DNA from: Roseiarcus fermentans
GTDB lineage: Bacteria > Pseudomonadota > Alphaproteobacteria > Rhizobiales > Beijerinckiaceae
Direction: 5' to 3'
Length of the DNA stretch: 64,000 nt
NCBI RefSeq assembly: GCF_003315135.1
Contig: NZ_QNRK01000001.1
Location: 69,458-133,457, forward strand
In this document: piece after piece, positions 27,393 through 51,476 of the stretch
How positions within the stretch are numbered: the first letter of the stretch is position 1
How the letters are laid out: each line of letters begins with the position of its first letter
The notes under the pieces: model-generated
What the model was told of the DNA's origin: nothing
Database searches by the model: none
What the model saw: only the letters and a program-made list of their open reading frames with translations
Position numbers and translations under genes: made by a program

Positions 27393-27469
27393 GCCGCCAT
27401 AGCTCAGTTGGTTAGAGCGCTAGATTGTGGATCTAGAGGTCCCCCGTTCGAGCCGGGGTGGCGGTACCA
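27393..27469 (+). tRNA. tRNA-His (anticodon GTG), island attachment site
   Basis: The cloverleaf folds well: acceptor GCCGCCA/TGGCGGT (one G-T pair at the end), D arm GCTC-GAGC, anticodon stem CTAGA/TCTAG around loop TTGTGGA (anticodon GTG), T-loop GTTCGAG, discriminator A and encoded CCA. Canonical bacterial tRNA-His has an extra G opposite C73; A73 without that pair is known from many alpha-proteobacteria. The last 40 bases are repeated exactly at 51437-51476. Confidence 0.95.
27430..27469 (+). repeat. attL-type 40-bp repeat of the tRNA-His 3' end
   Basis: Bases 27430-27469 equal 51437-51476 exactly, and the match extends to 27422/51429 with one G-to-A difference at 27429/51436, the third anticodon base. 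The pair brackets 24 kb of accessory genes including a tyrosine integrase, which is the expected product of site-specific integration into a tRNA 3' end. Confidence 0.9.
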
Positions 27470-29134: not shown

Positions 29135-31171
29135 TCAGTTCAACCCCAGCGCCTTGAACGCCGCTGTCTTCGGGTCGCTGAAGAAGATCGGGTCGACGTG
29201 CTCCATGATGTCGCCCGTCACTTCCAGGAAGCTTCGCTTGTTCTCCAGTGGGATCAGCGCCCGCTTGGCACCGTTGTCCATGGCGACCTGAAGAGGCTCG
29301 ACCAGGGACCGCAGTCCCTTGATGTTTCCCTGGACACTCAGGTCGCCCATGATCAAGAGACCCGCTATCGGGGGCGCCTTCTTCAGCGCGGAGAATGCCG
29401 CCACGAAGAAGCCGAGGCCGATCTCGCCCTCGACGCGATTGTTGAGCAGGTCGATGACCTCGACGTGCAGATCGCTCGCATCCATCTCCCGAGCGATCGC
29501 CAGGTCGCTCTTCTTCGCCAACATGTAGCTGAACGCCCGCCCGATGGACTCTTTGGTCGCGCCCGAGATCCCGCCGGCCGTCCGCAGCTTGCCGTTCCCT
29601 GCGGCCACGGAAACCTCGATGCGGTACATGCCGACGGTCCCGTCAGCCGCCACGGTTCCCGCGTAGACGCTCCCCGGCGCCAGGGGGTCGGATGAGATCA
29701 GGTTCCGGCCGCCCTGCTCGGGAACGCCGACGAAATGCTCCTCGCCGGATTCGATGTCGGAATAGCTGAACGAGGTCTGGTAGTATTCGAACGAGCCCAT
29801 TTTCTTGAGCTGCTCCTTCACTCTGCGCCGGCCTTCCATCGCAAACTCGAGGAGTTCGGCGATCTCTTCGCGGGTTGCCTGTCCGTCGGGATGGATGATC
29901 TTCATCAGTCCGGAGACGGTTTTCTTCACGGCCTTGCGGTCGCGCGTGACGAGGTGGGAGCCCATCGAGAAGTGCCGGTCGGTGATCTCCGTGAAATTGT
30001 GGCGTCGGAGTTCACGCAACGCCTCCGCGAGGTAGTCGACCACGAAGCCGTAGTGGTCGGTGAAAAGGTCGTTGCGCATTTTCGGGATTTCCCATCCCGG
30101 CAGATAGAAATGCAGGCGGTCGATGAACGCCATGTCGTCGCGGATAACGGTCGGCATCGGCTCGAACAGGTGTCCGGACTGCACCATGATGTCGATCGGC
30201 TGGTTCGTGTTGCCGAACATGGCGATGCTGGCTTCGCCGGTCGCTGCCTCCTGGCCGCGCTGGTACTGCCCGGACTCGCAGTAGGTCTTCATCGTCGTGA
30301 TGACCTCCTTGGGCATCTTCTCCAGGTCCGCGACCTCGTCGAAGCCGACGACGTCCCAGATCTGAACGAGGCCCTTGGAGCGGCCACCCATGTGGCCGAA
30401 CAGGTTGGCGACGGTCGTGGGTCCAGTCATCAGCGCCGAGTAGGGGGAGACCTCCTGCGTGACGTAGCTCTTGCCGGTTCCGCGGGGCCCGAGTTCGACC
30501 AGATTGTAGTTCCGCTCACAAAGCGGGATCATCCGGGACAGGAACAGGAACTTGAGCCGCCGGGTCATCTCGGCCGGCTCATACCCCATGCTCCTCAGAA
30601 TGAGGTCGATCCATTCGTCCGTCGTGAATTCGGCGCGCTGCCGCTGGAACTCCTCCAGGTCGAAGGCGGCGATCTGGATCGGGGTCAGCTTGTCGATCCA
30701 GAACGGGTTTTTGCCCTTGCCCTCCTCGTCGTAGGCGAAGCGCATCTCGATTTGCGCCCAGATGCCGCCGGTCAGCAGGCGCTCGTAGTTGCGGACGTAG
30801 TCGGTTGGAATGTGGACGAACTTGTTGCCGAAATTGCTCACCTCGGCCCAATAGTCGGAATCGACGAGGCGCACTTTCACCTTGTCGATGAACGTGTAGC
30901 GGCCGTTTTCTTTCACCTTGCTCTGCGCCTTCATGGACTCGTCGGCACGGATGTAATTGTCGGCCAGCGTCTCGTTGACGACCTGCAGGCCCATCTGGAT
31001 GGCCATCTCGTCGGACGAGGCGCAGTATTTTCCCAGAAGGAACTCGAGAACGAAGACCGGCACGTTGGCGCCGGTCTTGACCTTGCGGACGAGGTCCTTG
31101 CGGACGACCTTGCCGGCGAACAGGCGGTTCGCCTTGTCGTCCAGGGCGTCGCGGGCAGGGGCGTTGCTCAT
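29135..31171 (-). CDS. brxL: BREX system Lon-like AAA+ protein BrxL
   Basis: A 678-residue BrxL, the usual length. The N-terminal part (LDDKANRLFAGKVVRKDLVR, FVLEFLLGKYC) is family-typical. The AAA+ domain has ELGPRGTGKSYV at about 226 and IWDVVGFDEVADL as Walker B; FGNTNQPID and DRLHFYLPGWE follow. The last 180 residues are Lon protease-like, but the GPSAG-type serine motif reads EGEIGLG and the later lysine position reads GLR, so the protease dyad seems absent. BrxL is required for phage restriction in type 1 BREX and forms DNA-binding rings. A GGAGGAG site stands before the ATG, 13 bp after pglZ. Confidence 0.93.
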   Translation of the reverse strand: MSNAPARDALDDKANRLFAGKVVRKDLVRKVKTGANVPVFVLEFLLGKYCASSDEMAIQMGLQVVNETLADNYIRADESMKAQSKVKENGRYTFIDKVKVRLVDSDYWAEVSNFGNKFVHIPTDYVRNYERLLTGGIWAQIEMRFAYDEEGKGKNPFWIDKLTPIQIAAFDLEEFQRQRAEFTTDEWIDLILRSMGYEPAEMTRRLKFLFLSRMIPLCERNYNLVELGPRGTGKSYVTQEVSPYSALMTGPTTVANLFGHMGGRSKGLVQIWDVVGFDEVADLEKMPKEVITTMKTYCESGQYQRGQEAATGEASIAMFGNTNQPIDIMVQSGHLFEPMPTVIRDDMAFIDRLHFYLPGWEIPKMRNDLFTDHYGFVVDYLAEALRELRRHNFTEITDRHFSMGSHLVTRDRKAVKKTVSGLMKIIHPDGQATREEIAELLEFAMEGRRRVKEQLKKMGSFEYYQTSFSYSDIESGEEHFVGVPEQGGRNLISSDPLAPGSVYAGTVAADGTVGMYRIEVSVAAGNGKLRTAGGISGATKESIGRAFSYMLAKKSDLAIAREMDASDLHVEVIDLLNNRVEGEIGLGFFVAAFSALKKAPPIAGLLIMGDLSVQGNIKGLRSLVEPLQVAMDNGAKRALIPLENKRSFLEVTGDIMEHVDPIFFSDPKTAAFKALGLN

Positions 31172-31184
31172 CGGTCTCCTCCCC

Positions 31185-33734
31185 CTACTTGATCACGCGG
31201 ACCGGAACGTCCTGCGGCGACTCGTACAGCACCGCGTCGGTCTCGGCGTCGAAGACCTGAATGCGTAGCGCGGGAATCGTGTCGTCAGTGAGGATCAACC
31301 CGACCGCGACGGGGTCCTTGGGTCCGATCAGGACCTCGCCGTCCTCGACCGGCCCGGCCATCGTCATCTTCGCAACCGCGACCTGCCGGTTTCCGACCGT
31401 CGCGACCGGGCGCACCCGCCGCGGCTGGGCGAAAAGGTCCGCTGCGGAGCCGAGCGCGATCTCGATCGAGAAAATCCGGTTCGTGACGGCCTCGCCGGCG
31501 AACTTCACGACTAGCCCCTTCTTCTCCTTCGACGCGGCCGTGAGCTTCATCCGGACGGTGATGACGGGAATGACGAGCTCCTGGAGCGAGGCGCCTCCGT
31601 GATGGTAGGCGAGATCGCCGCCGGCCTTGAAGACCGCAACGCTCTTCGGGACCACGACGTCCAGATCGGTCACGTATCCGAGCTTCGCCCCCGGAACCCT
31701 CACGGTCCCCGGAGGCGTCGCGCCGCCTCGGCCGATCCAGCACCGCCGGTGAAGCTCGATCTGGTCGCCGCCCGGGCTCGAAATCCGCATGGCCTCCTCG
31801 CGCTCGGCCGCAAAATAGAGGTGGCCGTGGTCCGCCGTGACGACCGCGTTCTCGATCCCCGCGCCGGCAAGTTTCGAGAGGCAGCGCGCGACATCGCCGA
31901 CCGTGCCCTCCATGATCCGGCGGGCGTAGCGATTCTCGGTGTTCTCGCCCGCGGCGTCGATTTCGGTCGATCGGACGAACACGATCTGCGCGCCCGCGAG
32001 CCTCTTCTGCGTCGCCTTCGTCCATGTCAGGACGTCGTCGAGGGTGAGGTCGACGATGCCAGGAACCTGCGCCTGGAGGTATTTCTGGCGGGAGGCGAGG
32101 TCGGGCAGGAAGGCGTCGCCGATCAGGGCGCCGAGCTTGCCGTTCTTGTCGGCGATCGAGAAGCTCGCGGCGGCGCCCGGCAGGATCGCCGCCATGCCGA
32201 TTGGCGTGATCGACGGCAGCGCGGCGATGGCCGCCCGCAGCCTCACTTCGCCCATGCGGGCGAGCCGGTCGGCGAGCTCCACGCCAATCTCGTAGCGCAT
32301 GGCGTCGACGGCGACGAGGGCGAACGGCTTCGGCAGCGCCGCGACGATCTCCGCCCAGATTCGATGCTGCGGCAGGGCGCCGGCGATGCTCCATCCGGCG
32401 TTCTCGTAGACCTTGGCGAAGCCCTCGGCCTGGCGCCGGGCGACCTCGTCGTATTTTGACCGGCAGCGCGCGACCGCGGCCTCGCTGACCTCCTCGTCCT
32501 CGATGGCCGCGAGCAGGGTTTCGAGCCGCCGCTGAGCGTGGTCGAAGCGATGCCACCCCTCCGCGCCGGTGGCAACGTAGCGCTCGACCCATTGCTCGGG
32601 TTTGCCGTTGGCCTTTGCGACGGTGGCGAGCACGGCGTCGGCCTGCCGGCCCATGGCGACCATCAGGCGGCAGGCCTCCCAAACCGCTTTGCGCTGCGTC
32701 AGGCGGTCGGCCCAGAAACTCTGGCTCCTCACTTCGAGGAGGGCGGCGGCCTCGTCCGTCCGGTCCGCCGCGATCAGGTCGAAGATCTTCGCGGCCGCCG
32801 CCCGCTCCTCGAACCGGAAGATGTCGATGGGGCCGAGGGCGCCGCCGGAGACGGAAGATTCGGACAGCCCGAGTTCCGACTGCGCCTGTTCGGCGAGGAT
32901 TTCGTAGGCCGCGGCGCGCGAGGGTTCCCGCATCTTCGCGGCGATGTGGTGGATAGCGGCCTCCTGCTCCTTCGAGGCCGGGGCCGCCAGCGTTGAGATT
33001 GAAGCGGGCGCGGGGCATTTCAGCCCGAGGCGAAAGGCGTTTCCGAGGACGAAGCGGGCCGTCACCGCGCGCATCTTGGCGAGCGGCATCCCTTCGGCGA
33101 TGTCAAGCCCGAGTCGGGCTTGCAGCGCGCGCCGCAACTCGCCGCCGGCGCCCTTCTGGTCGATGTCGCCGTCGTTGGCCTCGTCGCCGAGCCATCCGGC
33201 GATGATGGCGCGGGTGTCGGCGTCGCGGAAAATGCTCTTGAGCAGCGAGGCGCCGTCCGGTCCGCCGGTGTCCTCGGTCATCCGGGCGAGGTCGGCGTAG
33301 GTGAGCTTGTCGCTGCCCAGCATCTCGTCGATGGCGACGTCGGTGAAGCGCTTGCGCAGCACGTTGCGCGCGATCTGCCTCAGCGCGGGAGGCAGGTAGC
33401 AGTCGCCGGCCTTCTCAATTTCGAGCAGGAGCGACGTCTTCTCGTCTCGCGTCACGCCGGGCATGTAGATGACCACGTCGGCGACCTCCTCGCCGCCCGT
33501 CAGCGGCTCGACCGCGGTGCGGACTTCGAGGAACGAGCCCTGGAACGAGCAGACCGCGGCCCTTCGGGCGCCGAACATTCCCGTCCGCATCAGGACGACG
33601 CCGCCATCGCCGCCGCACGCCTCGTCGAAGAAGGCCGGCAGCTCCCGGCGCGGGTCGTACATCACGACCATGCGGCGGTCCTTGAGCCGGTCGGAAATCT
33701 GGCGCGCGATGGTGTCGTGAAGGGGGTGCATCAT
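31185..33734 (-). CDS. pglZ: BREX system alkaline phosphatase-superfamily protein PglZ
   Basis: An 849-residue PglZ. The N-terminus (DTIARQISDRLKDRRMVVMY, DPRRELPAFFDEA) is that of the type 1/6 group. The phosphatase-like core has FALVAVDAMRYEIGVELADR at about 465, ALPSITPIGMAAILPG, and VTADHGHLYF at about 630, which carry the metal-binding Asp/His residues of the superfamily. PglZ is the defining BREX component and is needed with PglX for host methylation. It lies 4 bp after pglX in the operon. Confidence 0.94.
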   Translation of the reverse strand: MMHPLHDTIARQISDRLKDRRMVVMYDPRRELPAFFDEACGGDGGVVLMRTGMFGARRAAVCSFQGSFLEVRTAVEPLTGGEEVADVVIYMPGVTRDEKTSLLLEIEKAGDCYLPPALRQIARNVLRKRFTDVAIDEMLGSDKLTYADLARMTEDTGGPDGASLLKSIFRDADTRAIIAGWLGDEANDGDIDQKGAGGELRRALQARLGLDIAEGMPLAKMRAVTARFVLGNAFRLGLKCPAPASISTLAAPASKEQEAAIHHIAAKMREPSRAAAYEILAEQAQSELGLSESSVSGGALGPIDIFRFEERAAAAKIFDLIAADRTDEAAALLEVRSQSFWADRLTQRKAVWEACRLMVAMGRQADAVLATVAKANGKPEQWVERYVATGAEGWHRFDHAQRRLETLLAAIEDEEVSEAAVARCRSKYDEVARRQAEGFAKVYENAGWSIAGALPQHRIWAEIVAALPKPFALVAVDAMRYEIGVELADRLARMGEVRLRAAIAALPSITPIGMAAILPGAAASFSIADKNGKLGALIGDAFLPDLASRQKYLQAQVPGIVDLTLDDVLTWTKATQKRLAGAQIVFVRSTEIDAAGENTENRYARRIMEGTVGDVARCLSKLAGAGIENAVVTADHGHLYFAAEREEAMRISSPGGDQIELHRRCWIGRGGATPPGTVRVPGAKLGYVTDLDVVVPKSVAVFKAGGDLAYHHGGASLQELVIPVITVRMKLTAASKEKKGLVVKFAGEAVTNRIFSIEIALGSAADLFAQPRRVRPVATVGNRQVAVAKMTMAGPVEDGEVLIGPKDPVAVGLILTDDTIPALRIQVFDAETDAVLYESPQDVPVRVIK

Positions 33735-33738
33735 GTCC

Positions 33739-36700
33739 TCAGGCGGCCTTGGACTTCCGACAGCGTTTCGCCGGCCCGGTTTGGTCGGGCGCCTCCATCA
33801 GGCTCTTCAGCGCGGCCTTGACCGCCGCCGACGAACGCTCGGCGACGAGTTCGTCGACGGGCCGCGACGGCGTCGAGCGCGACTTCCACTTGCCGCCCTC
33901 ACCCTCAACCCAGAAGACATCTTCGAGGCCGTGGGCTATGGCGAGGCTGCGGTCGTCCGCGCATTTTGGAACGACCCGCTCGGGCCAGAGATGCATGGCG
34001 AGATGGGCCCAGTCGTACTTGCCTTCGCTGAGCGCGTCCCACGTCGCCTTCAGCTCCTTCTGCCAAGGCTTGTGCTGCGGGACAAGGCGCCAGAGGGGGG
34101 CGAAGTTGATGATGACGCCGTCGTCGAGGTCAAAATTCCAGAGCGGTGCGACGCGCGCGACCTCCTCAAGGAAGGCGCGAAGCTCGTCGACGAAGGCCTC
34201 ATGCGCCGCCATGGTCTTGCGCTGCGCGGCCGTGCCGCCGTCGCCGAGTTCGCTCTTCATCGATCCGAGGCGGCGGGCCTCCTGGGCGAGCTTCGGCGCG
34301 AGGTAATCGTTTTGGACGCGGAAGAGCGTGTCCCGGGTAAACGCATGAATATAGAGCCAGACCGAGTAGCCCGCCGACCGAGTCGCGAGTTGCCAGTAGA
34401 TTGGCGCCTTGCGGCGACAAGCCGTGTATTGTCTAATGTGAACGTTGAAAAATTCGTGTGAAAGGTAATTGCGAATTTCTTGGTTCGTCGCTTTTGTGCA
34501 CGAAAAGCGACCAACCTTGCGGTTAGCAAGTTCTATCCATATTCGCGCCACGGTTTGCACAATATCTTGAATATCTCCGTTATCATCATGCAACATACCT
34601 GCGACGGATATTTCAGGCACCAATTCATTTAGTGGAGAATTTATTGCATAGGCTGGAGGTCGTGTCTGAAACACGAATATATCTGCGTCCAGAGATTTTC
34701 GTTTGACATCAGCTATTTTATAATCCCAGCGACCGAAAAGCACGCCAAGCGCGTATGAAAGATGCTGGTGAAAGCTCGTCACTGACGATAATTGTATCTC
34801 GCCATCATCCCCATCAGATTCTTCAATCAATTTATTCTCGGTTCGATAGTCAATAGCCTCCTTTAACTCATTTATTACATCATTTGCTTCATTCACGCTT
34901 AATCCATATGCTTCATGAATTACGCTCTCGACCGACCCAAGCGCACCCAGTGAGAGTGTATTGGGGCGCTCAACTCGCCCCTCTTCCAAGCCGCAAAACA
35001 AGCTAGAGGTCTCGTCTCCTTCAAGTCGCTTTCGTACTTCTTTTACGTGCTCTTGGACAATTTCCTCGATTGCAGCTGCGGCGCTCCCTTCTATTTCTGG
35101 TACCCACAAATTCTTTAGGAGCCGTGTACCCCAAATAGGCCATACAAATTTCTCTGCGTTCCAACGTAAGACCGCAGATACTATGTCCGATGCCAATAGT
35201 CCGAGTAGCATCCCTTCTCGTCCAGAACGAGGATATGCAACATAACGACTTACGGTTGGAATAACTCCGGATGGAACAAGAGTAGGTATACAACGAGTCG
35301 ATCTCTTCACCCAACTTACGCCTGGCTTAAAATAGTATGACTCATTGGGAACATGGCGAGTAATGCTATTCCCCTTATGCTCCACAAGCGCCTTCAGTTC
35401 GCGCCCGCATTGGTGCCACTTCAGCACCGTGCTAATGTCTGAGAACCACGCCGCAGCTTCGTCTGATTTCAGGATGGCCACCCACGCCCGCTCACGCCCA
35501 GCCTTGAGCATGATGTCTTGTGACGCAATTTCCCATCGAAGGCGCACAAATCTGTTGTCATCGTTTGTCTGTAGACCTGATCGAACGTCCGCCCAATCGG
35601 GCTCCAAAGTCGTCCCGCTCGCCGCCATGGCAAGGATCCGCGGATGAACCCAATAGGCAAAAGGATTCATACGAAGTCTCATAAATTCTTCGCAGTCAAC
35701 GACAAAGACATTTCTATTATTACACTGCATTGACGCAATTTGAATAATTATTGCCTTATCTCTCTCTGTTACAGCCCGAATAAAGTTCGTTGGGCCGTCT
35801 TGAGCGCTGCGACTGGCCGTGTATGCGGCAACTTCAACCATCGCATCATCAAGAACGTTTTCTCCAAGGTCGGCAAAAATACGGAGACGACGTCCTTCAA
35901 ACGCGAAGCGACGCCACTCAGAAAGAGATTCATTGAAGAAACCCGTTCGGCTGGTTATCGCTCCGAAATAGCCACAACTCGTGAGCATCTCCAACGCGCG
36001 CAAGACGAACGCGGCGAGAATGTCAGTTGACGCTGTGGGATACCCGTCACGAGCATGAGAGCGTGATGACGTCGAAAAGGATCCGAATGGCGGATTCATC
36101 ACCACCGCCTCAAATTTTTTCGAGACCAAATCAACTAATCCAAATCCCTGCGCCGCGTCCTCCGCAAATAGCCTTCGCCTCACATTCCCCGAAGCACCCG
36201 CCTCCTCAGCGTAGTCCGCGAGCGCGCAGAACACGAGCCGCTCCGCCTTCGCCCAGAAATCCTCCCCCTCGCCGGGAACCAGCTTCACGAGTTGCTCGCC
36301 CGTCGGCGCCCCAGCGCCGAAGTAAGTCACGTTGAACAGCGGCAGCCGCTCTTCCCATTCAGCGCGCCCCTTCGCGACCGCGTCGGCGATTTCGCGCTCA
36401 ATCCTGAGCAGCGTCCCCATCTCCCCAGCCAACTTCATCCCGTCCCAGACCGTCTCGACAAGTTCGCCGAGGCTCTTGGCCATCTCCTTCGTCGCTTTGA
36501 CCTTGCGACTTGACGGGATGTCCAGCGCGCGACGCATCAGGTCTTCCAGCCGGTCTTCCTTCAGCCCGGCCAAAAAATCCTGAAGCAGATCCTTCTCCCC
36601 CGGCATCGGCTCAGCGATAACGATATTCGCCCGTCGAATGGGCGGCCGGTCGGCGAGATCGACGCCGAAATCTCGGAACGCTCGCTGCGCCCGCATCCAG

Positions 36701-37797
36701 AGCGCCAATTGCGCAATCTGCGCGCAGCGCGGGTCGATGTCGACGCCATGCAGATTATTGGCGAGGACGAGGCCGGGGACGGCCTTTCGCAGAGTGTTGA
36801 GGCTCTCGTAATCTTCGCGGAGCCTGCGCCCGGTCGCCTCGCTCTTCGGGCTCTCCAGGTCGGCATACGCCTCCTCGTAGATCGTGAGCAACAGATCGAA
36901 CGCGTAGAGAAGGAAGTGGCCGCTGCCGCAGGCGGGATCGAGCACGCGCAGGTCGCGCGGGTCTTTCTTCGCCCGCATTGCGAATGTCTCGCCCGGCTTG
37001 CGGACCATGTATTCGCAGCGCTCGGCGAGCGCCGTGTCCGAGTCGCGCATCTCGTACCAGATGCGGCCGAGCGTATTGTCGGTGAGGAACTGGACGACGT
37101 AGCGGGGCGTGAAAAACTGGTTGCGCACCGCCAGTTCGCGGCTGTTGCGCGGCGCCTGACTCTCCTCGCGCATTCTGCGCCGCTCGTCCTGGCCATTGAA
37201 ATACTGGTAGACCCAGCCGATCGTCTCGTCCTCGCCCCACACGCCCTTCAATTCGTCGGCGTTGAGGGCGGCCAGCATCTCGTCGAACGCCGCCCGGCGC
37301 GGCCACAAAGCCGAGGCCGGATCGCGCCGGTCGAACAGGACCTTCACTTCGGTCGAAAGCTCGTCGAAGACGCTCTCGATGTAGAGCCGATAGCCGCTGC
37401 CGTCCGCAAACTTCAGGCCGGGCGCGAGGCCGCAAAATTCGTTGGCGAAGCCGGAAGACGCCTCGCCCTTGCTGACGCATTCCTGAACCAGCCCGCGCGC
37501 CTCCAGCATCTTCAGGGCGACGAAGCGGTTCATGGTAGTGAAGGCGGCGTCGCGAAGAAAGTCGGCGACCGCCTCGTCCGCCTTCATGCCCTGCGCGCGC
37601 TTGTGCTCGGTCGCGGCGACAATGCGCGAGCGGAGCGCCCGCTGCGAGCCGGTCAAATGCGCGCCCGGACGCTCGCCGGCGCGGCCGTCCGGCATGACGT
37701 CGTAGTCGCCCTGCAATTGCTCGGAAAAGTCCCTCTCCAGGATGCCGCGGACTTTTTGGGTCGCTCGTTCGATCGCGCTGCGCGTCTCCTTCTCCAC
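33739..37797 (-). CDS. pglX: BREX adenine-specific DNA methyltransferase PglX
   Basis: A 1352-residue class I methyltransferase. The AdoMet motif PACGSGHFLLYAFDLLL is at about residue 290 and the catalytic motif IV VVMNPPFGSFS at about 565; QFFTPRYVVQFL precedes them. PglX methylates the fifth adenine of a 6-7 bp site and sets the specificity of BREX. The region coding for about residues 560-1115 (roughly 34450-36130), which includes the target-recognition part, is much AT-richer than both ends, suggesting a swapped specificity block. The frame is intact throughout. It starts 5 bp after brxC. Confidence 0.94.
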   Translation of the reverse strand: MEKETRSAIERATQKVRGILERDFSEQLQGDYDVMPDGRAGERPGAHLTGSQRALRSRIVAATEHKRAQGMKADEAVADFLRDAAFTTMNRFVALKMLEARGLVQECVSKGEASSGFANEFCGLAPGLKFADGSGYRLYIESVFDELSTEVKVLFDRRDPASALWPRRAAFDEMLAALNADELKGVWGEDETIGWVYQYFNGQDERRRMREESQAPRNSRELAVRNQFFTPRYVVQFLTDNTLGRIWYEMRDSDTALAERCEYMVRKPGETFAMRAKKDPRDLRVLDPACGSGHFLLYAFDLLLTIYEEAYADLESPKSEATGRRLREDYESLNTLRKAVPGLVLANNLHGVDIDPRCAQIAQLALWMRAQRAFRDFGVDLADRPPIRRANIVIAEPMPGEKDLLQDFLAGLKEDRLEDLMRRALDIPSSRKVKATKEMAKSLGELVETVWDGMKLAGEMGTLLRIEREIADAVAKGRAEWEERLPLFNVTYFGAGAPTGEQLVKLVPGEGEDFWAKAERLVFCALADYAEEAGASGNVRRRLFAEDAAQGFGLVDLVSKKFEAVVMNPPFGSFSTSSRSHARDGYPTASTDILAAFVLRALEMLTSCGYFGAITSRTGFFNESLSEWRRFAFEGRRLRIFADLGENVLDDAMVEVAAYTASRSAQDGPTNFIRAVTERDKAIIIQIASMQCNNRNVFVVDCEEFMRLRMNPFAYWVHPRILAMAASGTTLEPDWADVRSGLQTNDDNRFVRLRWEIASQDIMLKAGRERAWVAILKSDEAAAWFSDISTVLKWHQCGRELKALVEHKGNSITRHVPNESYYFKPGVSWVKRSTRCIPTLVPSGVIPTVSRYVAYPRSGREGMLLGLLASDIVSAVLRWNAEKFVWPIWGTRLLKNLWVPEIEGSAAAAIEEIVQEHVKEVRKRLEGDETSSLFCGLEEGRVERPNTLSLGALGSVESVIHEAYGLSVNEANDVINELKEAIDYRTENKLIEESDGDDGEIQLSSVTSFHQHLSYALGVLFGRWDYKIADVKRKSLDADIFVFQTRPPAYAINSPLNELVPEISVAGMLHDDNGDIQDIVQTVARIWIELANRKVGRFSCTKATNQEIRNYLSHEFFNVHIRQYTACRRKAPIYWQLATRSAGYSVWLYIHAFTRDTLFRVQNDYLAPKLAQEARRLGSMKSELGDGGTAAQRKTMAAHEAFVDELRAFLEEVARVAPLWNFDLDDGVIINFAPLWRLVPQHKPWQKELKATWDALSEGKYDWAHLAMHLWPERVVPKCADDRSLAIAHGLEDVFWVEGEGGKWKSRSTPSRPVDELVAERSSAAVKAALKSLMEAPDQTGPAKRCRKSKAA

Positions 37798-37802
37798 GGT
37801 CG

Positions 37803-40800
37803 CTACCTCACGATCACGATCTTGCCGGCGCCGAGCAGGCGCGAGAATTCGTCGCGGATGCCCGACAGCGCCTGTTCGAGCTGCTCATCGTTCTCTATGC
37901 CGCCGGCGAAGAATTTTCCGACCGAGACGGTGGCGACCCGCTCGCCTTCGAGGATGGTGTGGATCTTCTCGACCGCGGCCGCGAGGCGTCCGTCGCAGGC
38001 TTCGGTGACGGAGCGTATGTGGGCGATCGTCTGGTTGTTCCAGTTCCTGTCGGCGCATTGGCGAAGCGCCCGGGCGACCTCTTCCTGCTGCTCGCCGTCG
38101 AGGCGCTCCCACCCCGGCGTCTGTTCGAGTGTGGCGACGGCTGCGGCGTAGGCCGCGACGCGGGCGTCGAGCGCCTCGTCGTAGCGGCGCCGGTACTCGC
38201 CGGAGACGGCGGTCGCCGCCTGCTCGATCTCGGCGATGTCGCGGAAGAACGTCTCCTTCGATAGCCGGTCGCCGAGGACGACGACCTTTTCCCTGAAGGC
38301 CGGATCGAGGTCCGGCTCTTCGAGAAGCGCCGGCGCCTCCCGGGCGAGCGTCGTCTTGGCGCGGTCGAGGTCGAGCAGCGCCGGCTCAGAGAGCACCGAG
38401 GACAGGTCCGTCGCCCGCTTGATTGCCTCCCTTATCGAGCGATGAGAAGCGTTGAAGGTGGTGATCGCGTTCTCTTCAAAGCCGCGCCGGATGCCCTTGA
38501 TCTGGTCGATCGCGTTGTCGAGCACTTCGGCGCCGGGAAAGCGCCCTATCCGAAGCGCCGTGGACGCCTTCTGGAGATCGTCTTCGGGTTCCTCGACCGC
38601 TTTGCGAATGGCTTCGGCGATCGCCCCGGTGGTCAGTTCCCGAACATCCTCTCCGAAAGTCTCCTTGAAATTGTCGGCCGCCTCGATCCGGACCTTCATG
38701 TCCACGCCCTTCTTCGGGCGGAAGCTGGTCGACCGGAAGAGGTTGTTGTTGGAGAAGGCGTCCTTCGCCTGGGTCGAGGTCACGCTGTCGATCGTCACGC
38801 CCTTGGAGACGGCTTCGACGGCGCCGGCGCGCAGGAGCGACAGGGCGAGCAGGCGCACGGCCTCGAAGTCCCAGCCGAACGGCGGCTTCGAAAACTCATC
38901 CTCGAGGAACTTGCCGGTCGCCTGCTCGCCGTAGTTCGCTTTGGCCGTGATCTGCGCCATGATCTCGGCGAGCGGCGTCACGTCGATCTTGAACACCGGC
39001 TTGCCGTGTTCGTCGCGCAGCAGACCGAGCTGGCCGAAGACCGGCGGCAGTCCGTTCAGGTTCTCGACCGTGAACAGCGCGTCGACGCCCTTCTTGAGGT
39101 CGGCGGCCTTCGCCGAGGCTTCGCCGAACCGGTCGTAGACGAGGGGCAGCACGACGCCGACGATGGCGATGGCGGCCTTGCCGACATCCGCGCCGCCGTC
39201 CGGGCTGCGGTCGTTGCCACGGAACCAGACCTGACCCGAGAGCGCCGCGGCCTTGAGCCGCCGCCTGAGTTCGTCCATGTGCCGTCGCAACCGGCCCTTC
39301 TCGTCCGCAACGAGCGCCGTGCCGTCCTGCGTCGCCGCGTCCCGGCTCCTCCGCTCGATCATCTGCTGCGAACGGTAGGCTTCCCGGACCTCGCTGCGGA
39401 TGTCCTCGTCGAGGGTCACGACCCAGAAAATGCTCTTCGGGTCGGTCTGGCTGCGGACGCGCAGCTGCTCGGACAGCGCCGCGGCGCCGGCCGGGCCGTC
39501 GGCGAACTGCACGTTGAAAGTGATGTCGCCGGACACCTCCTCCTTGCCGTTGAACATCAGGCCGGCCCGGAAGGACTTGGTGTCGCCGAGGCTGAAGGTC
39601 GGAGTCGGCGACCAGAAGCCGGACAGGACCTCGGCATAGAGCTTGTTCTCGTCCGCGGGGTGCGCGCTGATCGAGAAACGGTTCTGGCTCCAGTCGTCTT
39701 CGGCCGGAGTCGGGATGCGGTAGCCGTCGTCCGCCTCGCGGACGAGCGACGTCTTCGTCAGTTCGGCGAGCGCGGCCTTGACCTCGGCGAGGCAGGAATC
39801 CGCGGACACGGTCTCCTGCAGGCAGGCTGCGACGTTCTCGGCCGAGCGCCTGACGCTCTTCACGAACTGGAGCAGGCAGACGGTCTTCGCCACCGCCTGC
39901 GCCTTCGGGTGATCGACCTTGGACGGAATTGAAGCGATCTTGGCGCGAATGTCCGACGCGATGTTGCCGTCGACAAGGTCGTAGACGTGGTCGAGCCGGA
40001 CGAGCGCGCCGACCTCTTTGGCCGCGAGCTGCGTTTGCGGGTTGATCAGGAGCTGCTGCGCGAGCTTGATGATGGTGCGGTTGGCGCCGCCGACGTGCCT
40101 GCTGCCGCCGCTCTGGGTCCGCAGGCCCGACACGATCTGAATGATCAGTTCGATCTGGTACGGGAGGAGCGGATAGAGGTCGACGAAGGACTGCCGGTCG
40201 ATCTCGGGAAGCCGGATGTCGGACTGGATGCGGGTGCTCTGGACGAGCCGGCCGCGGTTCGCCTCGAACAGGGCGCCGAGGGATTGTTCGGCGCCGGCGT
40301 TCTTGGAGAGCACGCGGCGGCTCGTCACCTCGGAGATGTCCGAGGGCTCCAGATGCACCTGGAGCGGGAATCGGTCCATGAGGCGGGCAAGCTCGATGTT
40401 CCGATCGTCGAGGCCGCTGACGAGTTCGTTGAGCTTCTCCTGCGAGGTGACGACGATCCAGTGCTTGCCGCGCCCCTTGACGCCAAGTTGCTGGACGACC
40501 GCCTGGAGGTCGAGCATCTTCTGGACGTCACGCGCGACGAACTGCCCGACCTCGTCGACCACGAACATCAGCGACTTGCCGGGCTTCCGCCGCTGCATCA
40601 ACTGAACAATCCGGTCGGCAAGCTTGCCGGGGCTGATGTCGGCGCGGTTGACGTTCGCCTTCACCCAGGAATCGGCCAGCGGGAACGTCTCAGGGCGCAT
40701 CGTGTGGAGCGTGCGGCTCGCCTCATTGAGGGCGAACATCGTCCGGTTCTTGCCGACGTCCCACTCCCGCTGCGTCTCCTTCCGGTAGACCTCCTTGAAC

Positions 40801-41336
40801 GTCTCCAGTTCGCCCTGCTGCTCCAAGTTGATTTCGAGTTCGGAGAGGTCGAGGTCGTCGGAATAGCCGAGGCTCGCCAAAAAGAGCCGGTACATGATCT
40901 GGCTGAGCATCTGGTTGCCCGACCGGATGCCGCGGTCGGTCGAGACGTCGAAGATGACCGTGTGGGTCGGAATTTTCTCGTTGATGGTCTTCAGGACGAC
41001 GGAAAGCTTCGCATCGTGCGTCCGCTTCAGGAACCGGTCGGAGACCGGCTCGCCAAGAACGGTCCGGTTCTCGATCGTGAGGCCGAGCAGCTTCGCGAAC
41101 GACGACTTGCCGGACCCGAAGAAGCCGGAGACCCAGATCGCGATGCCTTCATGCGGCTTCTGCGGCGTCTCCTGATAGCGCTCGAACACTTCGACGAAAT
41201 GCCGCTTGATGGCGTCGGTGACGACGTATTCCTCGACCTCGCTCGCGACCACAGCCTCGGCGGTCTGGTCGACCTTGATGACCTCTTCGATTTGCCGGTT
41301 GATGTCGTTGGCGAACAGCGTGGCGATCTGCGGCAT
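37803..41336 (-). CDS. brxC: BREX system P-loop ATPase BrxC
   Basis: An 1177-residue BrxC from the ATG at 41336; a TTG at 41348 closer to GAGGG would add four residues. FANDINRQIEEVIKVDQ opens the protein, Walker A GFFGSGKSS is at 71-79, and LMFVVDEVGQFVARD is Walker B. IVVTSQEKLNELVSGLDDRN follows as a sensor-like element. BrxC is an essential ATPase of BREX, distantly ORC/Cdc6-like. It is nested between brxB and pglX with gaps of 15 bp or less. Confidence 0.93.
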   Translation of the reverse strand: MPQIATLFANDINRQIEEVIKVDQTAEAVVASEVEEYVVTDAIKRHFVEVFERYQETPQKPHEGIAIWVSGFFGSGKSSFAKLLGLTIENRTVLGEPVSDRFLKRTHDAKLSVVLKTINEKIPTHTVIFDVSTDRGIRSGNQMLSQIMYRLFLASLGYSDDLDLSELEINLEQQGELETFKEVYRKETQREWDVGKNRTMFALNEASRTLHTMRPETFPLADSWVKANVNRADISPGKLADRIVQLMQRRKPGKSLMFVVDEVGQFVARDVQKMLDLQAVVQQLGVKGRGKHWIVVTSQEKLNELVSGLDDRNIELARLMDRFPLQVHLEPSDISEVTSRRVLSKNAGAEQSLGALFEANRGRLVQSTRIQSDIRLPEIDRQSFVDLYPLLPYQIELIIQIVSGLRTQSGGSRHVGGANRTIIKLAQQLLINPQTQLAAKEVGALVRLDHVYDLVDGNIASDIRAKIASIPSKVDHPKAQAVAKTVCLLQFVKSVRRSAENVAACLQETVSADSCLAEVKAALAELTKTSLVREADDGYRIPTPAEDDWSQNRFSISAHPADENKLYAEVLSGFWSPTPTFSLGDTKSFRAGLMFNGKEEVSGDITFNVQFADGPAGAAALSEQLRVRSQTDPKSIFWVVTLDEDIRSEVREAYRSQQMIERRSRDAATQDGTALVADEKGRLRRHMDELRRRLKAAALSGQVWFRGNDRSPDGGADVGKAAIAIVGVVLPLVYDRFGEASAKAADLKKGVDALFTVENLNGLPPVFGQLGLLRDEHGKPVFKIDVTPLAEIMAQITAKANYGEQATGKFLEDEFSKPPFGWDFEAVRLLALSLLRAGAVEAVSKGVTIDSVTSTQAKDAFSNNNLFRSTSFRPKKGVDMKVRIEAADNFKETFGEDVRELTTGAIAEAIRKAVEEPEDDLQKASTALRIGRFPGAEVLDNAIDQIKGIRRGFEENAITTFNASHRSIREAIKRATDLSSVLSEPALLDLDRAKTTLAREAPALLEEPDLDPAFREKVVVLGDRLSKETFFRDIAEIEQAATAVSGEYRRRYDEALDARVAAYAAAVATLEQTPGWERLDGEQQEEVARALRQCADRNWNNQTIAHIRSVTEACDGRLAAAVEKIHTILEGERVATVSVGKFFAGGIENDEQLEQALSGIRDEFSRLLGAGKIVIVR

Positions 41337-41351
41337 GAAAGAACCCAACCC

Positions 41352-41927
41352 TCAAAAAATCTTCGGCCGATAATTGTGCTCGGCTTGAAGGACGCCCATG
41401 AAACGAAGGCCCGCGGCGCCGTCGAGATCGCCCGGATAGAAGAGAACCGTGGGCACGACGACGCGCCCCTTGAGCTGCTCCAGCAGCGAGAAAGTGCGGT
41501 AGACCGGGAAGAGCGCGCCCGTCCGGACGATGAAGACCACGTCTTTTCGCGGGTCAGGCTCCGAGGGCATCCGGTCCGCAACCAGATCGACGAGCGGGAC
41601 GCGGTCGGCGAGCAGCTTGTGGATGTCCTCGATCGCCTTTTCCGCACCCAACGCGCGCTCGTTCTCGAACCATTCATCGAGACTCGCCTCCGCCTTGAGT
41701 GCCGCGTCGAGGCACTCGGCGAGCGATATGGACGTGATGCGCTTGCCCTTGTTCTCCAGCCTCGTGCGCAACGAGGAGACCTCGCGACGTAGGGCGAGTT
41801 CCTGCCTCGGGTCATAGTGGAAGATCGCGTACGGCATATCGTGGTACGCGCTGATCTTCTCGCTCGGGTCCGGCGCGGCCAGGACAGGCTCCAGGACATT
41901 CCGCAGGCGGGCGCCGAATTCGCTCAT
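41352..41927 (-). CDS. brxB: BREX system protein BrxB (DUF1788)
   Basis: A 191-residue DUF1788 protein: YAIFHYDPRQELALRREVSS, VFIVRTGALFPVYRTFSLLE, VPTVLFYPGDLDGAAGLRFM and a terminal NYRPKIF, all typical of BrxB, which is required for defence and of unknown mechanism. The start overlaps the brxA stop (ATGA), showing translational coupling. Confidence 0.93.
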   Translation of the reverse strand: MSEFGARLRNVLEPVLAAPDPSEKISAYHDMPYAIFHYDPRQELALRREVSSLRTRLENKGKRITSISLAECLDAALKAEASLDEWFENERALGAEKAIEDIHKLLADRVPLVDLVADRMPSEPDPRKDVVFIVRTGALFPVYRTFSLLEQLKGRVVVPTVLFYPGDLDGAAGLRFMGVLQAEHNYRPKIF

Positions 41928-42691
41928 CGGGTGAGGCTTTCTGCGAAGGCGAGCGCCGACGAATACGGAAGCGTCAGCTGAACGAGGCTCCCGGCGACCT
42001 GATAGTCGAGACGGCGGAATTGGTGCAGGCGCAGGAGCATGACGTGCACCTCCGACGCCGAAACCATCATCATCCGCCAGAGATCGCTCGCCGGGACCTT
42101 GGCGGACGAGCCTTCGAGGTCGGCAATCATCTGCGCATAGAACAGCAGGACCTCGTCGCTGCTCGAAACGGCGGCAAAGGACTTCGCGGGGCCGTCGCCG
42201 GCCAGCAGCCCGAGTTGGGCGGCCGTATGGACGAGGTCACGAGCCGCGCGCACGACGCCGTGGTCCGAGAGGGGCCGCTTCGGTGAATGGCGGCGCCAGG
42301 CATCGACGGCGAACACGCGGGCGTCTTCGGCGCGGAGTTGGTGGCGGCCGGACTGCATCTGTGCAAAAAGCCAGTTGCGGACGAAACTCCCGAAGGGCTC
42401 CTCGGTCGCGCCGATCCAGAGGCGCCAACAGTCGCGCCAGTCGTCCAGCTTCATGCCGTGGCGAGCCAGAATGATCAGCGGCCGTAGGGCGTCGAGATGT
42501 CTGAGGCGCGCTGACGTCGTCAGGCGAACCTCCTTCGCCCACGAGATCGTCGAGAACTGGCCCCCCAACCCGCCGTCGAGATTCGCTTCCGCTGAAGCTT
42601 CATCGCTCCAACCGGAGAACAGCCGATAAGTCTCCTCGACGAGCGGGCCCTTGCGCAGATACCGCTGGGAGAAGACCGGCGCGGGCTTCAC
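41924..42691 (-). CDS. brxA: BREX system protein BrxA (DUF1819)
   Basis: A 255-residue DUF1819 protein, somewhat longer than the roughly 200 residues common in type 1. SQRYLRKGPLVEETYRLFSG and LIILARHGMKLDDWRDCWRL are in the N-terminal half, and SASEVHVMLLRLHQFRRLDY close to the end is the family's helix. BrxA is a small DNA-binding helical protein in characterised systems. It overlaps brxE upstream and brxB downstream by ATGA. Confidence 0.88.
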   Translation of the reverse strand: MKPAPVFSQRYLRKGPLVEETYRLFSGWSDEASAEANLDGGLGGQFSTISWAKEVRLTTSARLRHLDALRPLIILARHGMKLDDWRDCWRLWIGATEEPFGSFVRNWLFAQMQSGRHQLRAEDARVFAVDAWRRHSPKRPLSDHGVVRAARDLVHTAAQLGLLAGDGPAKSFAAVSSSDEVLLFYAQMIADLEGSSAKVPASDLWRMMMVSASEVHVMLLRLHQFRRLDYQVAGSLVQLTLPYSSALAFAESLTR

Positions 42692-43248
42692 GCGGTCCTC
42701 GACGGTGCGTACGGGACGAGGAGGTCGCCTTTCGCAGCTTTGCTGAAGCCGAGCGCCAGCAGGGAAATCGATTTGCGTCCGAGGTCGAAAGTACCGGGGA
42801 TCAAGACGCCCTTTGCCCCGTCCGCGACCTTGAGCCTGCCAGCCGCCTCGACGTCGGCTTCGTCGACGAGCGAAAGGCTCCTCAGGGCGGCGGCGACGTC
42901 GAAGTCCTTGAGCGCCTCAACCGATTCGAAGAACGTTCTCCAGTTCTCCGCTTCGTCCAACCACCCTTCCCACCGGGCGTCGAAAGCCTCCTCGACTTCA
43001 TGCGGAAGGCGCCAGAGTGTCAGGGCGTCCGGCGAGTCGAAGATCTCGGCGCATCTGTGGGCCGCGACCGCGAACACCGACCGCGCTTGCGCGAAAAAGT
43101 GGGTTCGGGGAAAGCCGCGCTTCAGAACTTTCGCGCCGTATGGGCCGAGTTGTCCTTCCGTGTTCCACCACCGTTGAGCATCCATCTCGCCGCATCGGGC
43201 GACCACCGTCCGGACGCGCATAAGCCAATCGAGACCAAAGGAAATCAC
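42688..43248 (-). CDS. brxE: BrxE-like protein, first gene of the BREX operon
   Basis: A 186-residue protein that matches my memory of BrxE from type 6 BREX: RVRTVVARCGEMDAQRWWNT, GQLGPYGAKVLKRGFPRTHF, FAQARSVFAVAAHRC, LTLWRLPHEVEEAFDARWE. BrxE function is unknown. It starts with GTG and has no strong ribosome site. It heads the operon and is translationally coupled to brxA. Its presence together with brxL and without brxD/brxHI is a mixed type 1/type 6 layout. Confidence 0.82.
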   Translation of the reverse strand: MISFGLDWLMRVRTVVARCGEMDAQRWWNTEGQLGPYGAKVLKRGFPRTHFFAQARSVFAVAAHRCAEIFDSPDALTLWRLPHEVEEAFDARWEGWLDEAENWRTFFESVEALKDFDVAAALRSLSLVDEADVEAAGRLKVADGAKGVLIPGTFDLGRKSISLLALGFSKAAKGDLLVPYAPSRTA

Positions 43249-43471
43249 TTGTGAAGGGCTCCCAGCCCACTCGAAATATCTCGTTTGCGACCCTAGCTAA
43301 CGATGTGAACGCCGAATGGGCAAGCGGATTAAAGCTGCAACATCTCCGAACTGGACATTCACCGACCTATGGGCGCGCAGCTCCCCGATTGAAATCGAAC
43401 GGGCATCATGTTACCTTTTCTCAAGAAAAAGGAACGAAGTTCAGAGGCAAGTGGATGTTCGGAAATCAGAA
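43249..43471. promoter_or_regulatory. Divergent promoter region of BREX and the serine recombinase
   Basis: A 223-bp spacer between the GTG of brxE (minus) and the ATG of the recombinase (plus). CCTTTTCT and AGAAAAAGG at 43414-43432 form a near-perfect inverted repeat 40 bp before the recombinase start, which could be an operator or resolvase site. No WYL-type BrxR regulator gene is seen nearby. Confidence 0.45.
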
Positions 43472-44149
43472 ATGAGCGGGCAATGCCAGAAGGCAGTCGC
43501 CTACTTGAGGACGTCCAGCAAGGCGAACGTCGGCGCCGACAAGGACTCCGACAAGCGCCAGCGCGCCGCGATCGACGCCTACTCCAAGGCCGCTGGCTTC
43601 GCGATCGTGGCGGAGTTCTACGACGCGGCGGTCTCTGGCGCGGACCCGGTCGGCGACCGCCCCGGTTTCGCCGACATGCTTGAGCGGCTTCTCTCGAACG
43701 GCGCGCGGACAATCATCGTGGAATCGCCGGACAGATTCGCCCGCGATCTCATGGTGCAATTGGCCGGCCACGACCTGCTCAAGGCGCAGGGGATCGCACT
43801 GATCGCCGCGAGCGCCCCAACGTTCTTCATCGAGGAGACACCGACTGCCGTGCTCGTCCGTCAGGTCCTCGGCGCCGTCGCAGAATTCGAAAAGACGACA
43901 ACCGTCGCGAAGCTCGCGGCCGCAAGGAAGCGGAAACGCCTGGCGAACGGCAAGTGCGAGGGCCGCAAGAGCCTGGCCGAGACGCGGCCTGAGGTGGTGG
44001 CCCTGGCAAAGAGGCTCGCTCGCAAGAAACCGAAAGGCGGAAGGATGAGCCTGCGAGCCGTCGCCGCCGAAATGGCGGCGCAGGGAGTCATGAATGAGCG
44101 CGGAAAACCGTTCAATCCGAAGTCGGTTGCGGTCATGATCTCCGCTTGA
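43472..44149 (+). CDS. Serine recombinase (resolvase family)
   Basis: A 225-residue recombinase. AVAYLRTSS at 8-16 holds the nucleophile (Ser15), followed by RQRAAIDAYSKAAGF, SGADPVGDRPGF and VESPDRFARDLMVQ with the catalytic arginines. The C-terminal region SLRAVAAEMAAQGVMNERGK is a short DNA-binding helix-turn-helix. The start is placed at MSGQCQK where the catalytic domain begins. Such small proteins invert or resolve nearby DNA. It diverges from BREX and is 14 bp from the end of the convergent DUF5681 gene. Confidence 0.85.
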   Translation: MSGQCQKAVAYLRTSSKANVGADKDSDKRQRAAIDAYSKAAGFAIVAEFYDAAVSGADPVGDRPGFADMLERLLSNGARTIIVESPDRFARDLMVQLAGHDLLKAQGIALIAASAPTFFIEETPTAVLVRQVLGAVAEFEKTTTVAKLAAARKRKRLANGKCEGRKSLAETRPEVVALAKRLARKKPKGGRMSLRAVAAEMAAQGVMNERGKPFNPKSVAVMISA

Positions 44150-44686: not shown

Positions 44687-44806
44687 GCAACATTTGGTAA
44701 CAAAGCAACATTGTTGCTCTTTGTTGCTGCGGCCCGTCTTGGTGGCAACAGGGCAACATAGGCAACACACCCTTTAAAAGGGTGTTGCCTGTGTTGCCTG
44801 TGTTGC
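44687..44806. repeat. Cluster of ten GCAACA/TGTTGC hexamers with a central hairpin
   Basis: Five GCAACA copies (44687, 44705, 44745, 44753, 44762) and five TGTTGC copies (44712, 44722, 44783, 44792, 44801) fall in 120 bp. The centre, 44761-44789, folds as a long hairpin around CCTTTAAAAGG. The right part overlaps the 3' end of the helicase gene, where 9-bp tandem units encode the repeated ATQ tripeptide. It could be an iteron-like replication or regulatory site, or a terminator. Confidence 0.6.
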
Positions 44807-45952
44807 CTCTCGGGTGACCTCGGACCGGCTGTTGCCGAGCTTCCAGAAATAAGGCGTCCCCTCGGGCGCGATGTCTCGCGAGACCATGAGCCTGCGCGCG
44901 ACGGCCTCCTTGGCGCATCTGCCGAACGCCACTCCCTTCGCCTTCGGGCTGTCGGCCGGATAGGTCTTCAAGAACTCGTGCCGGACGAATTCGCGTTTGA
45001 CACCTCGAACGGCGGGTCCGTTCGGATACGGATAGATGGTCTCGGGGGTGCTGCAGAGGGCGAAATCGAGAGCGCGCTCGAAGATCGCGAGCGACTTCGG
45101 CCAGGCTCTCGTCTGCGGTCGCTGCTCGTCGCCGGCGGTCGCTTCCTCGACCGGCTCGACGACGCATGAGGTGATTGGCTCGCCGTCGTCCTCGTCGGTC
45201 CCGACCACGACCGGCTTGAGGCGCGAGACGATCACGAGGCCGGTCTCGCCATCCTTGGCGTATTCGACCGTGGCGACGATGTTCCCGGCGGCGTCGCGCT
45301 TGACGGAAATCTGGACGTCGGCCGCGCCCATCAGCGACGAGTGGCCGCGGGGCCGGTTCTTGTCGTGGCCGCAGTGGTGGATGACGACGACGAGGCAACC
45401 GAAGGCCGCGCGGATCGCGTCGGACGCCCTGATGTAGGCCGCCATGTCCTCGTCGCTGCTCTCCGATCCGGACATGCTGCGGTTCAAGGTGTCGATGATG
45501 ACGATGGCGGGACGCTGTCCGCCGAGTTGGCGGCGGATGTCGTCGACGAGCGCCTTGGCGTCCTTCACGAGGTCGAGCGGCGTGGTCATCAGCCAAGCGT
45601 TCGGCGTCTCGCCGTTCACCTTCTCCTTGCGGAAGGCCGCGACGCGCCGCGCAAACCCCCGCGCCCCTTCGAGGGCGCAATAGATGACCGCCCCTTTCTT
45701 GACTCGCAGGCCGCGATAGGGGCGGCCCAGCGCGACGTGCATCACCGCGTCGAAGGTCCAGAACGACTTTCCGCATTTCGGCTCGCCCCAAATGACGGCG
45801 AGGCCCTCGGAGGGAAAAAGGCTCTTGATGAGGTATTGCTCCTTGAGGTCGAGCTTCACCTTTTCGAAGGGCGTGAGCTCGAAACGCGGCGCGGTCGCAC
45901 CCCCGGCCCGAGGCACGAAAGGCAGTATCGTCACCGCGTCTCGCCTCTTCAT
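44774..45952 (-). CDS. RepA/RecA-like AAA ATPase (replicative helicase type)
   Basis: A 392-residue hexameric-type ATPase. GLAVIWGEPKCGKSFW at 50-65 is Walker A, YCALEGARGFARRVAAFR follows, and PAIVIIDTLNRSMSGSESSD at about 148 is Walker B with the next motif. VVVIHHCGHDKNRPRGHSSL completes the RepA-helicase pattern. Its C-terminus carries ATQATQAT from DNA repeats. It overlaps the primase-like gene by ATGA, so both act together, probably in replication of the island or a phage/plasmid ancestor. Confidence 0.85.
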   Translation of the reverse strand: MKRRDAVTILPFVPRAGGATAPRFELTPFEKVKLDLKEQYLIKSLFPSEGLAVIWGEPKCGKSFWTFDAVMHVALGRPYRGLRVKKGAVIYCALEGARGFARRVAAFRKEKVNGETPNAWLMTTPLDLVKDAKALVDDIRRQLGGQRPAIVIIDTLNRSMSGSESSDEDMAAYIRASDAIRAAFGCLVVVIHHCGHDKNRPRGHSSLMGAADVQISVKRDAAGNIVATVEYAKDGETGLVIVSRLKPVVVGTDEDDGEPITSCVVEPVEEATAGDEQRPQTRAWPKSLAIFERALDFALCSTPETIYPYPNGPAVRGVKREFVRHEFLKTYPADSPKAKGVAFGRCAKEAVARRLMVSRDIAPEGTPYFWKLGNSRSEVTREATQATQATPF

Positions 45953-51266: not shown

Positions 51267-51292
51267 TTTAGAGGTCCGTTCAAGACCCCTCC

Positions 51293-51311
51293 GGGGGTCC
51301 GCTGGGGGTCC
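51293..51311 (+). repeat. Right-end tandem GGGGGTCC motif, candidate integrase arm site
   Basis: GGGGGTCCGCTGGGGGTCC, one mismatch from the left-end copy at 27531-27549. Further GTGGACC heptamers at 51340 and 51392 (reverse complement of GGTCCAC at 51307) add to the site-rich stretch between int and the attachment core. Confidence 0.5.
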
Positions 51312-51436
51312 ACGTCTCGTTCGCTTGAGATAGACCCTCGTGGACCGTGATGGAAGCAATTTATTGAAAATGCTCGCTTAATATGGAGACTGTGGACCGG
51401 CGTGGCCCACCGTAGACAGGCTTATTTCAGATTGTA

Positions 51437-51476
51437 GATCTAGAGGTCCCCCGTTCGAGCCGGGGTGGCGGTACCA
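51437..51476 (+). repeat. attR-type 40-bp repeat of the tRNA-His 3' end
   Basis: An exact copy of 27430-27469 including the T arm, 3' acceptor strand and CCA. It lacks the 5' half, so it is not a second tRNA gene. It marks the right end of the 24-kb island. Confidence 0.9.

Follow-up and report, generated by a model that had tools for sequence, protein, structure and literature searches.

Does a bacteriophage exclusion (BREX) operon that begins with brxE and ends with brxL belong to type 1, to type 6, or to neither? This question is raised by a stretch of 64,000 nucleotides from Roseiarcus fermentans (contig NZ_QNRK01000001.1, positions 69,458 to 133,457; hereafter the window), in which seven open and packed genes run on the minus strand from 43248 to 29135 in the order brxE-brxA-brxB-brxC-pglX-pglZ-brxL. 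An earlier first-pass annotation had given this order and these coordinates exactly, and had regarded the operon as a hybrid of two types that might represent an under-described subtype or an evolutionary link. Our findings keep the gene order and the combination but not the hybrid. Taken jointly with the working proposed below, it is probable that the operon is a complete-looking BREX system of a widespread BrxE+BrxL lineage, distinct from both classical type 1 and canonical type 6.

The operon looks complete, as all seven genes are open, match their families and contain the key motifs. Adjacent genes overlap by 4 nt or are separated by gaps of at most 13 nt. The first gene, brxE (42688..43248; 186 aa, GTG start), scored 144.8 bits against the BrxE family model NF033447 (cut-off 40), which bears out its earlier assignment, and failed the type-6 equivalog NF033448 (28.1 bits, cut-off 80). 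The start of brxA (41924..42691; 255 aa, the long form) overlaps the brxE stop by 4 nt (GTGA); BrxA matched the PADLOC model PDLC02454 with 257.9 bits and none of the Pfam or NCBIfam models. In the same way, brxB (41352..41927; 191 aa) overlaps the brxA stop by 4 nt; its product matched PF08747 (67 bits, cut-off 26.8) and no NCBIfam model. The AAA+ ATPase encoded by brxC (37803..41348; 1181 aa) retains its Walker A motif, reached 846.9 bits on NF033441 (cut-off 400) and is the only BrxC match in the genome. The adenine methyltransferase gene pglX (33739..37797; 1352 aa) encodes a SAM (S-adenosylmethionine) motif and NPPF, and its product passes the BREX-1 model NF033452 (634.1 bits, cut-off 500); two PADLOC models match the two halves of the protein. 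PglZ (31185..33734; 849 aa) contains the motifs DAMR and ADHG and matched PF08665 (61.8 bits) and PADLOC PDLC02559 (1043.7 bits), while remaining below every NCBIfam type cut-off (BREX-6, 217.8 of 400; type A, 151.9 of 270.35; type B, 88 of 400). The last gene, brxL (29135..31171; 678 aa), encodes the Lon-domain form with a Walker A motif (TIGR02653, 983.7 bits, cut-off 628.25), and residues 9-677 of the protein align with solved structures of BrxL (8emc and 8emh). With a PglZ-domain protein and a BrxC-type ATPase in one operon, the locus is a BREX system by the general definition.

No match to BrxD or BrxHI was obtained in the window with profiles each built from two type-6 records (Pseudanabaena galeata and Aulosira laxa). 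In the whole genome, a type-6 BrxD protein gave no match in a search run without a positive control, and a type-6 BrxHI protein retrieved just helicases of at most 31% identity, located on other contigs. The pairing of BrxE with BrxL, without brxD or brxHI, is real, and the operon fits neither textbook type 1 nor textbook type 6. With classical type 1, such as the E. coli plasmid operon, it shares the core and order brxA-brxB-brxC-pglX-pglZ-brxL and a PglX that passes the BREX-1 model. Unlike classical type 1, it possesses BrxE and a BrxA of 255 aa compared to a median of 209 aa in 12 classical loci; its PglZ fails the type A and type B cut-offs, and BrxC and PglZ fall outside the classical group in phylogenetic trees. 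With the type-6 operons of Pseudanabaena galeata pPg_02, Aulosira laxa and Azospirillum sp. TSH58, the operon has in common that BrxE stands ahead of a long BrxA and that PglZ scores higher on the BREX-6 model than on the type-1A and 1B models. In contrast to these, it has BrxL, lacks BrxD and BrxHI, and both BrxE and PglZ stay under the type-6 cut-offs. An equal gene set occurs in operons of Thioflavicoccus, Hymenobacter and haloarchaeal plasmids in which a 'BrxE family protein' accompanies brxL. The window holds a further member of this group; those of the operons that are represented in our trees fall in other subclades, and in some, additional genes separate pglX from pglZ.

How often brxE and brxL occur together was surveyed in several samples. 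A BrxC scan of GTDB genomes yielded 80 loci (the best 80 of 275 confirmed), 56 of which have BrxE, 32 the full E-A-B-C-X-Z-L set and none BrxD; the figure of 56 is enriched, because the BrxC query alignment had been built from BrxE+BrxL operons and the best 80 of 275 were taken. The BrxE-bearing loci span Pseudomonadota, Myxococcota, Planctomycetota, Actinomycetota, Chloroflexota, Acidobacteriota, Bacillota and haloarchaea. Among plasmid records, five BrxE queries recovered 11 with BrxE, eight as 'BrxE family protein' and three of type 6. All eight of the former carry brxL (Hymenobacter BRD67 in fragments), and all three of the latter (Pseudanabaena galeata, Aulosira laxa, Azospirillum TSH58) end in BrxD and a helicase. 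The Pseudanabaena record is labelled BREX-6, and its proteins pass the type-6 models for BrxE (198.1 bits) and PglZ (780.2 bits) as well as the BrxD model (510.5 bits). The other two match its BrxE and PglZ, and the unannotated Azospirillum record matches the BrxD and BrxHI profiles at 719 and 1016 bits. Among the 56 BrxE-bearing loci of the BrxC scan, L050 matches the BrxE profile but has a disturbed order, in which pglX precedes brxC and a gene for a helicase-like protein of 1464 aa follows it; this may represent another arrangement.

In genome samples, BrxE scored above the family cut-off in 2 of 100 relatives, 1 of 398 genomes of the phylum and 3 of 397 genomes of the order, with the window's genome counted each time. 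The three other genomes concerned (G055, G641 and G712) all have brxE, brxA, brxB, brxC, pglX, pglZ and brxL, with an additional gene before pglZ in G055. In G712 (L011 12507-16297), a 630-aa PglX match is directly followed by a separate 632-aa gene, so that pglX may be split there. In the phylum sample, BrxC was matched in 34 of 398 genomes, in 17 of them above the cut-off; among the 16 BREX genomes other than that of the window, none had BrxE near BrxC, although some of the stretches are cut by contig ends (e.g. L129, L134, L137, L142). A search of whole genomes for BrxE in 398 phylum genomes, apparently the same draw, also found the window's genome alone above the cut-off; a weak match of 21.5 bits in one genome (G196) lies on a contig on which no BREX gene was found. 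Judging by these genomes, classical type 1 operons do not routinely contain BrxE.

We then considered what BrxE itself is. Fifty-four BrxE sequences from operons of the BrxE+BrxL kind were compared (the window's and those of 53 relatives; the near-copy L086 as well as L050 and L080 were excluded). All 54 match NF033447 at an E-value of 1e-5, and together with the score of the window protein this rules out a chance assignment. The PADLOC BrxE model matched 3 of the 54 at the same E-value and barely detects the window protein (17.7 bits, E 0.0006). When the BrxE proteins of ten relatives were scanned one at a time, each exceeded the family cut-off, and the type-6 cut-off of 80 was reached by none (highest score, 64.7). 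All 54 sequences share two consecutive tryptophans (W27, W28) and P179 without variation. Structure prediction gave a single, mostly helical domain (predicted local distance difference test, pLDDT, 96.1; predicted template modelling score, pTM, 0.92); a sequence search yielded no solved relative and a fold search weak matches only.

The position of brxE is strongly conserved. In all 70 loci that have both genes, brxE and brxA lie on the same strand. The brxA start is located at most 200 nt from the brxE stop in 62 of the 64 plus-strand loci scored, and 36 of the 64 allow an overlap of 4 nt; the window operon, being on the minus strand, is outside the 64 and likewise overlaps by 4 nt. In the BrxE tree, this adjacency recurs across strongly diverged branches. 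A position ahead of brxA is also that of the WYL protein in the E. coli plasmid type 1 operon, and BrxE might accordingly, instead of being a subunit, regulate transcription of the operon, as BrxR (WYL) does in some type 1 operons. This we consider unlikely, as brxE often overlaps brxA, and BrxE matched no Pfam family, helix-turn-helix or other, at an E-value of 0.01.

The same coupling bears on the possibility that the operon is simply type 1 BREX and brxE an incidental addition without a role in BREX. Such a reading would agree with a 2026 survey that subsumes types 5 and 6 under type 1 as subtypes (PMC12839542), and with a subclade that lacks BrxE and keeps the remaining genes. Nevertheless, the shared strand and short distance to brxA hold across diverged branches, and BrxE is not scattered over BREX at large: in the phylum sample, none of the 16 BREX genomes besides that of the window showed it near BrxC. 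An incidental BrxE appears slightly less likely still than a regulatory one, and we keep to BrxE as a part of the system. Median BrxA lengths are 268.5 aa in the 70 loci with BrxE, 209 aa in the 12 classical loci and 268 aa in 17 other loci without BrxE (one of these cut at the contig start), where BrxE and BrxA lengths were counted from the first possible start codon and single values can be overlong. Since long BrxA proteins also occur in loci without BrxE, they mark a wider lineage and not BrxE.

An undetected BrxE-like gene coupled to brxA was also sought in 16 BrxE-less loci, none of which gave a BrxE profile match up to an E-value of 10. In three of them (L054, L060, L067), a long open frame ends within 60 nt of the brxA start.

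To place the operon among BREX systems, we built trees of BrxC, PglZ and BrxL. The BrxC tree comprises 73 rows and places the window in a 17-row clade (support 100) in which every locus has BrxE, 15 have brxL and the tail of two is unseen. Classical type 1 forms a separate group of 11 rows (support 99) without the window. In the PglZ tree (59 rows), rooted on nine classical type-1 rows (branch 100, also without the window), the window belongs to a 16-row clade (support 100), 15 members of which have brxL and one an unseen tail. The BrxL tree (47 rows) places it in a 13-row clade of BrxE+BrxL operons (support 100). The three trees agree on BrxE+BrxL operons as the neighbours of the window, which argues that the tail gene travelled with the rest of the operon. 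A recent recombinant, in which a type-6 front from brxE onward was spliced to a type-1 brxL, would suit the gene content at face value as well as the best scores of PglZ and PglX, which were obtained with the BREX-6 and BREX-1 models, respectively, but it is very improbable, as it is rejected by the congruent BrxC, PglZ and BrxL trees, the arrangement recurs in many phyla and haloarchaea, and the window BrxE is not of the type-6 kind; the hybrid of a type-6 head and a type-1 tail is given up with it.

If the BrxE+BrxL operons form a lineage, where does type 6 belong? In the PglZ tree, type 6 lies inside a 46-row clade (support 98), among groups of BrxE+BrxL operons. By the approximately unbiased test, a constraint that joined 37 BrxE+BrxL rows (one of them, L039, with an unseen tail) as one clade excluding type 6 and the BrxE-less rows was rejected (p-AU 0.00018), and so was the grouping of type 6 with classical type 1 (p-AU 0.012). 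The PglZ tree requires three changes in the presence of BrxE and a single change of the tail (BrxL versus BrxD-BrxHI); four changes in BrxE presence are required on the BrxC tree. Ten other PglZ proteins, nine of them from BrxE-bearing loci, were all below every NCBIfam cut-off, and eight scored best on the type-6 model. The suggested link between types is supported, in that type-6 PglZ lies among BrxE-bearing operons. In the PglZ and BrxC trees, which the first-pass annotation had proposed, the window stands outside classical type 1; type 6 is affiliated with BrxE operons in the PglZ tree and left at an open fork in the BrxC tree. We see about an even chance that a large BREX branch has had BrxE as a subunit since early on, and that canonical type 6 arose within it when BrxL was replaced once by BrxD-BrxHI. 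BrxL and BrxD-BrxHI would then be interchangeable DNA-motor modules on an E-A-B-C-X-Z chassis, and the six-type scheme would divide one lineage by its tail gene.

Several observations weigh against the assignment of the operon to a BrxE+BrxL lineage. The trees were obtained by quick searches, carry supports from the Shimodaira-Hasegawa-like approximate likelihood ratio test (SH-aLRT) and no bootstrap values, and contain long branches (the type-5 outgroup in the BrxC tree and the type-6 rows in the BrxE tree); type 6 is represented by three operons only. The open fork of type 6 in the BrxC tree is located beneath a node with a support of 84, and the same tree places the haloarchaeal BrxE+BrxL operons apart. 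The two haloarchaeal proteins among the ten other PglZ scored best on type 1A. The BrxC scan is enriched as described, and a tail is visible in 33 of its 56 BrxE-bearing loci (the 32 with brxL and L050) and not seen in 23; three of these (L033, L046, L073) continue for more than 7 kb beyond pglX without a pglZ match, and the remaining 20 stop before the tail gene. Finally, the BrxE-less subclade within the group (among L043-L060) has a long BrxA, with no BrxE detected before brxA, and every visible tail in it is BrxL. The subclade retains the rest of the operon, so BrxE is dispensable there, and it was probably lost.

How might such an operon work? Gene content, motifs, co-inheritance and the coupling of brxE to brxA are observed, and the roles of BrxB, BrxC, PglX, PglZ and BrxL are carried over by analogy from classical type 1, as far as these are given in the papers concerned. 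There, a complex of BrxB, BrxC, PglX and PglZ is required for methylation and defence (PMC11842806), BrxA binds BrxC and hinders its binding to DNA (PMC13326643), PglZ is a nuclease (PMC12205998) and BrxL is an ATP-dependent DNA-binding protein (PMC10164562). In the lineage considered here, the chassis would be E-A-B-C-X-Z, with BrxL as the tail or BrxD-BrxHI in canonical type 6. PglX would read a short DNA site via an exchangeable recognition domain and, together with BrxB, BrxC and PglZ, methylate the host DNA. Unmethylated phage DNA would switch the complex to restriction, in which PglZ would serve as the nuclease and BrxL as an effector or a ring-shaped DNA motor. From the published type 1 roles, we infer that BrxE most probably serves as a small accessory subunit, is produced in step with BrxA and acts jointly with BrxA on the sensing or regulatory side. 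The operon is presumably active.

The operons in question are already named in databases, where a 'BrxE family protein' occurs in brxL operons, and are hardly described in searchable papers. The combination looks rare and is widespread in bacteria and archaea. In the BrxE passages of the literature found by full-text search, there is no description of BrxE together with BrxL, and for BREX subtypes with BrxL, the titles and beginnings of abstracts among the matches listed contain nothing on the pair. The 2026 survey, in the parts available, gives BrxE as exclusive to type 6, citing the founding study, names it once in the main text and counts 506 type-6 taxa (PMC12839542), and the term 'under-described' is fair in this light. 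Some of these 506 taxa may be BrxE+BrxL operons. As the survey limits BrxE to type 6 and the PADLOC model misses most of the BrxE proteins considered here, the branch may pass for plain type 1, or for type 6, in counts that overlook its composition. Naming it would provide a tractable BrxL-type setting for BrxE and would make it testable whether BrxL and BrxD-BrxHI share one job.

The pglX gene itself appears to be a mosaic. Its central region (34498..36000, minus strand), which encodes approximately residues 600-1100 and corresponds by position to the recognition-domain region, has a guanine-cytosine (GC) content of 0.44-0.55 per 300-base step compared to 0.59-0.71 on both sides. Residues 600-1100 share 15-39% identity with seven relatives, compared to 56-92% for residues 1-400 and 66-85% for residues 1201-1300; residues 401-600 are mixed. 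A GC dip in the same part of pglX is also present in some relatives (L009, L025, L018). In Salmonella PglX, the recognition domain comprises residues 662-849 and is followed by spacer helices at 850-960 (PMC11341690). These positions fit an exchanged cassette, and residues 600-1100 of the window PglX are an apparent swapped DNA-recognition cassette by their composition and divergence.

An exact 40-bp direct repeat occurs at 27430..27469, which is the 3' end of a tRNA-His gene (27393-27469, plus strand, found by tRNA search), and, also on the plus strand, at 51437..51476, adjoining a tyrosine integrase gene (50058..51359, minus strand; PF13356, PF00589). Both copies resemble attachment sites. 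Between them, a resolvase-type recombinase gene (43316..44149, plus strand; PF00239, 86 bits) lies divergent from brxE, followed by genes on the minus strand for an AAA_25 ATPase (44774..45952; PF13481, 108.5 bits) and a primase-like protein (45949..47061; DnaG zinc ribbon, Toprim_3 and DUF7146 in Pfam). The BREX operon is thus probably part of an integrative element of about 24 kb at tRNA-His. Outside these repeats, a 1042-aa gene with SIR2-like and STAND NTPase domains (19959-23087) is located in an AT-rich stretch adjoining tRNA-Leu (23261-23345) and may be a further gene for phage defence in the vicinity of the BREX element.

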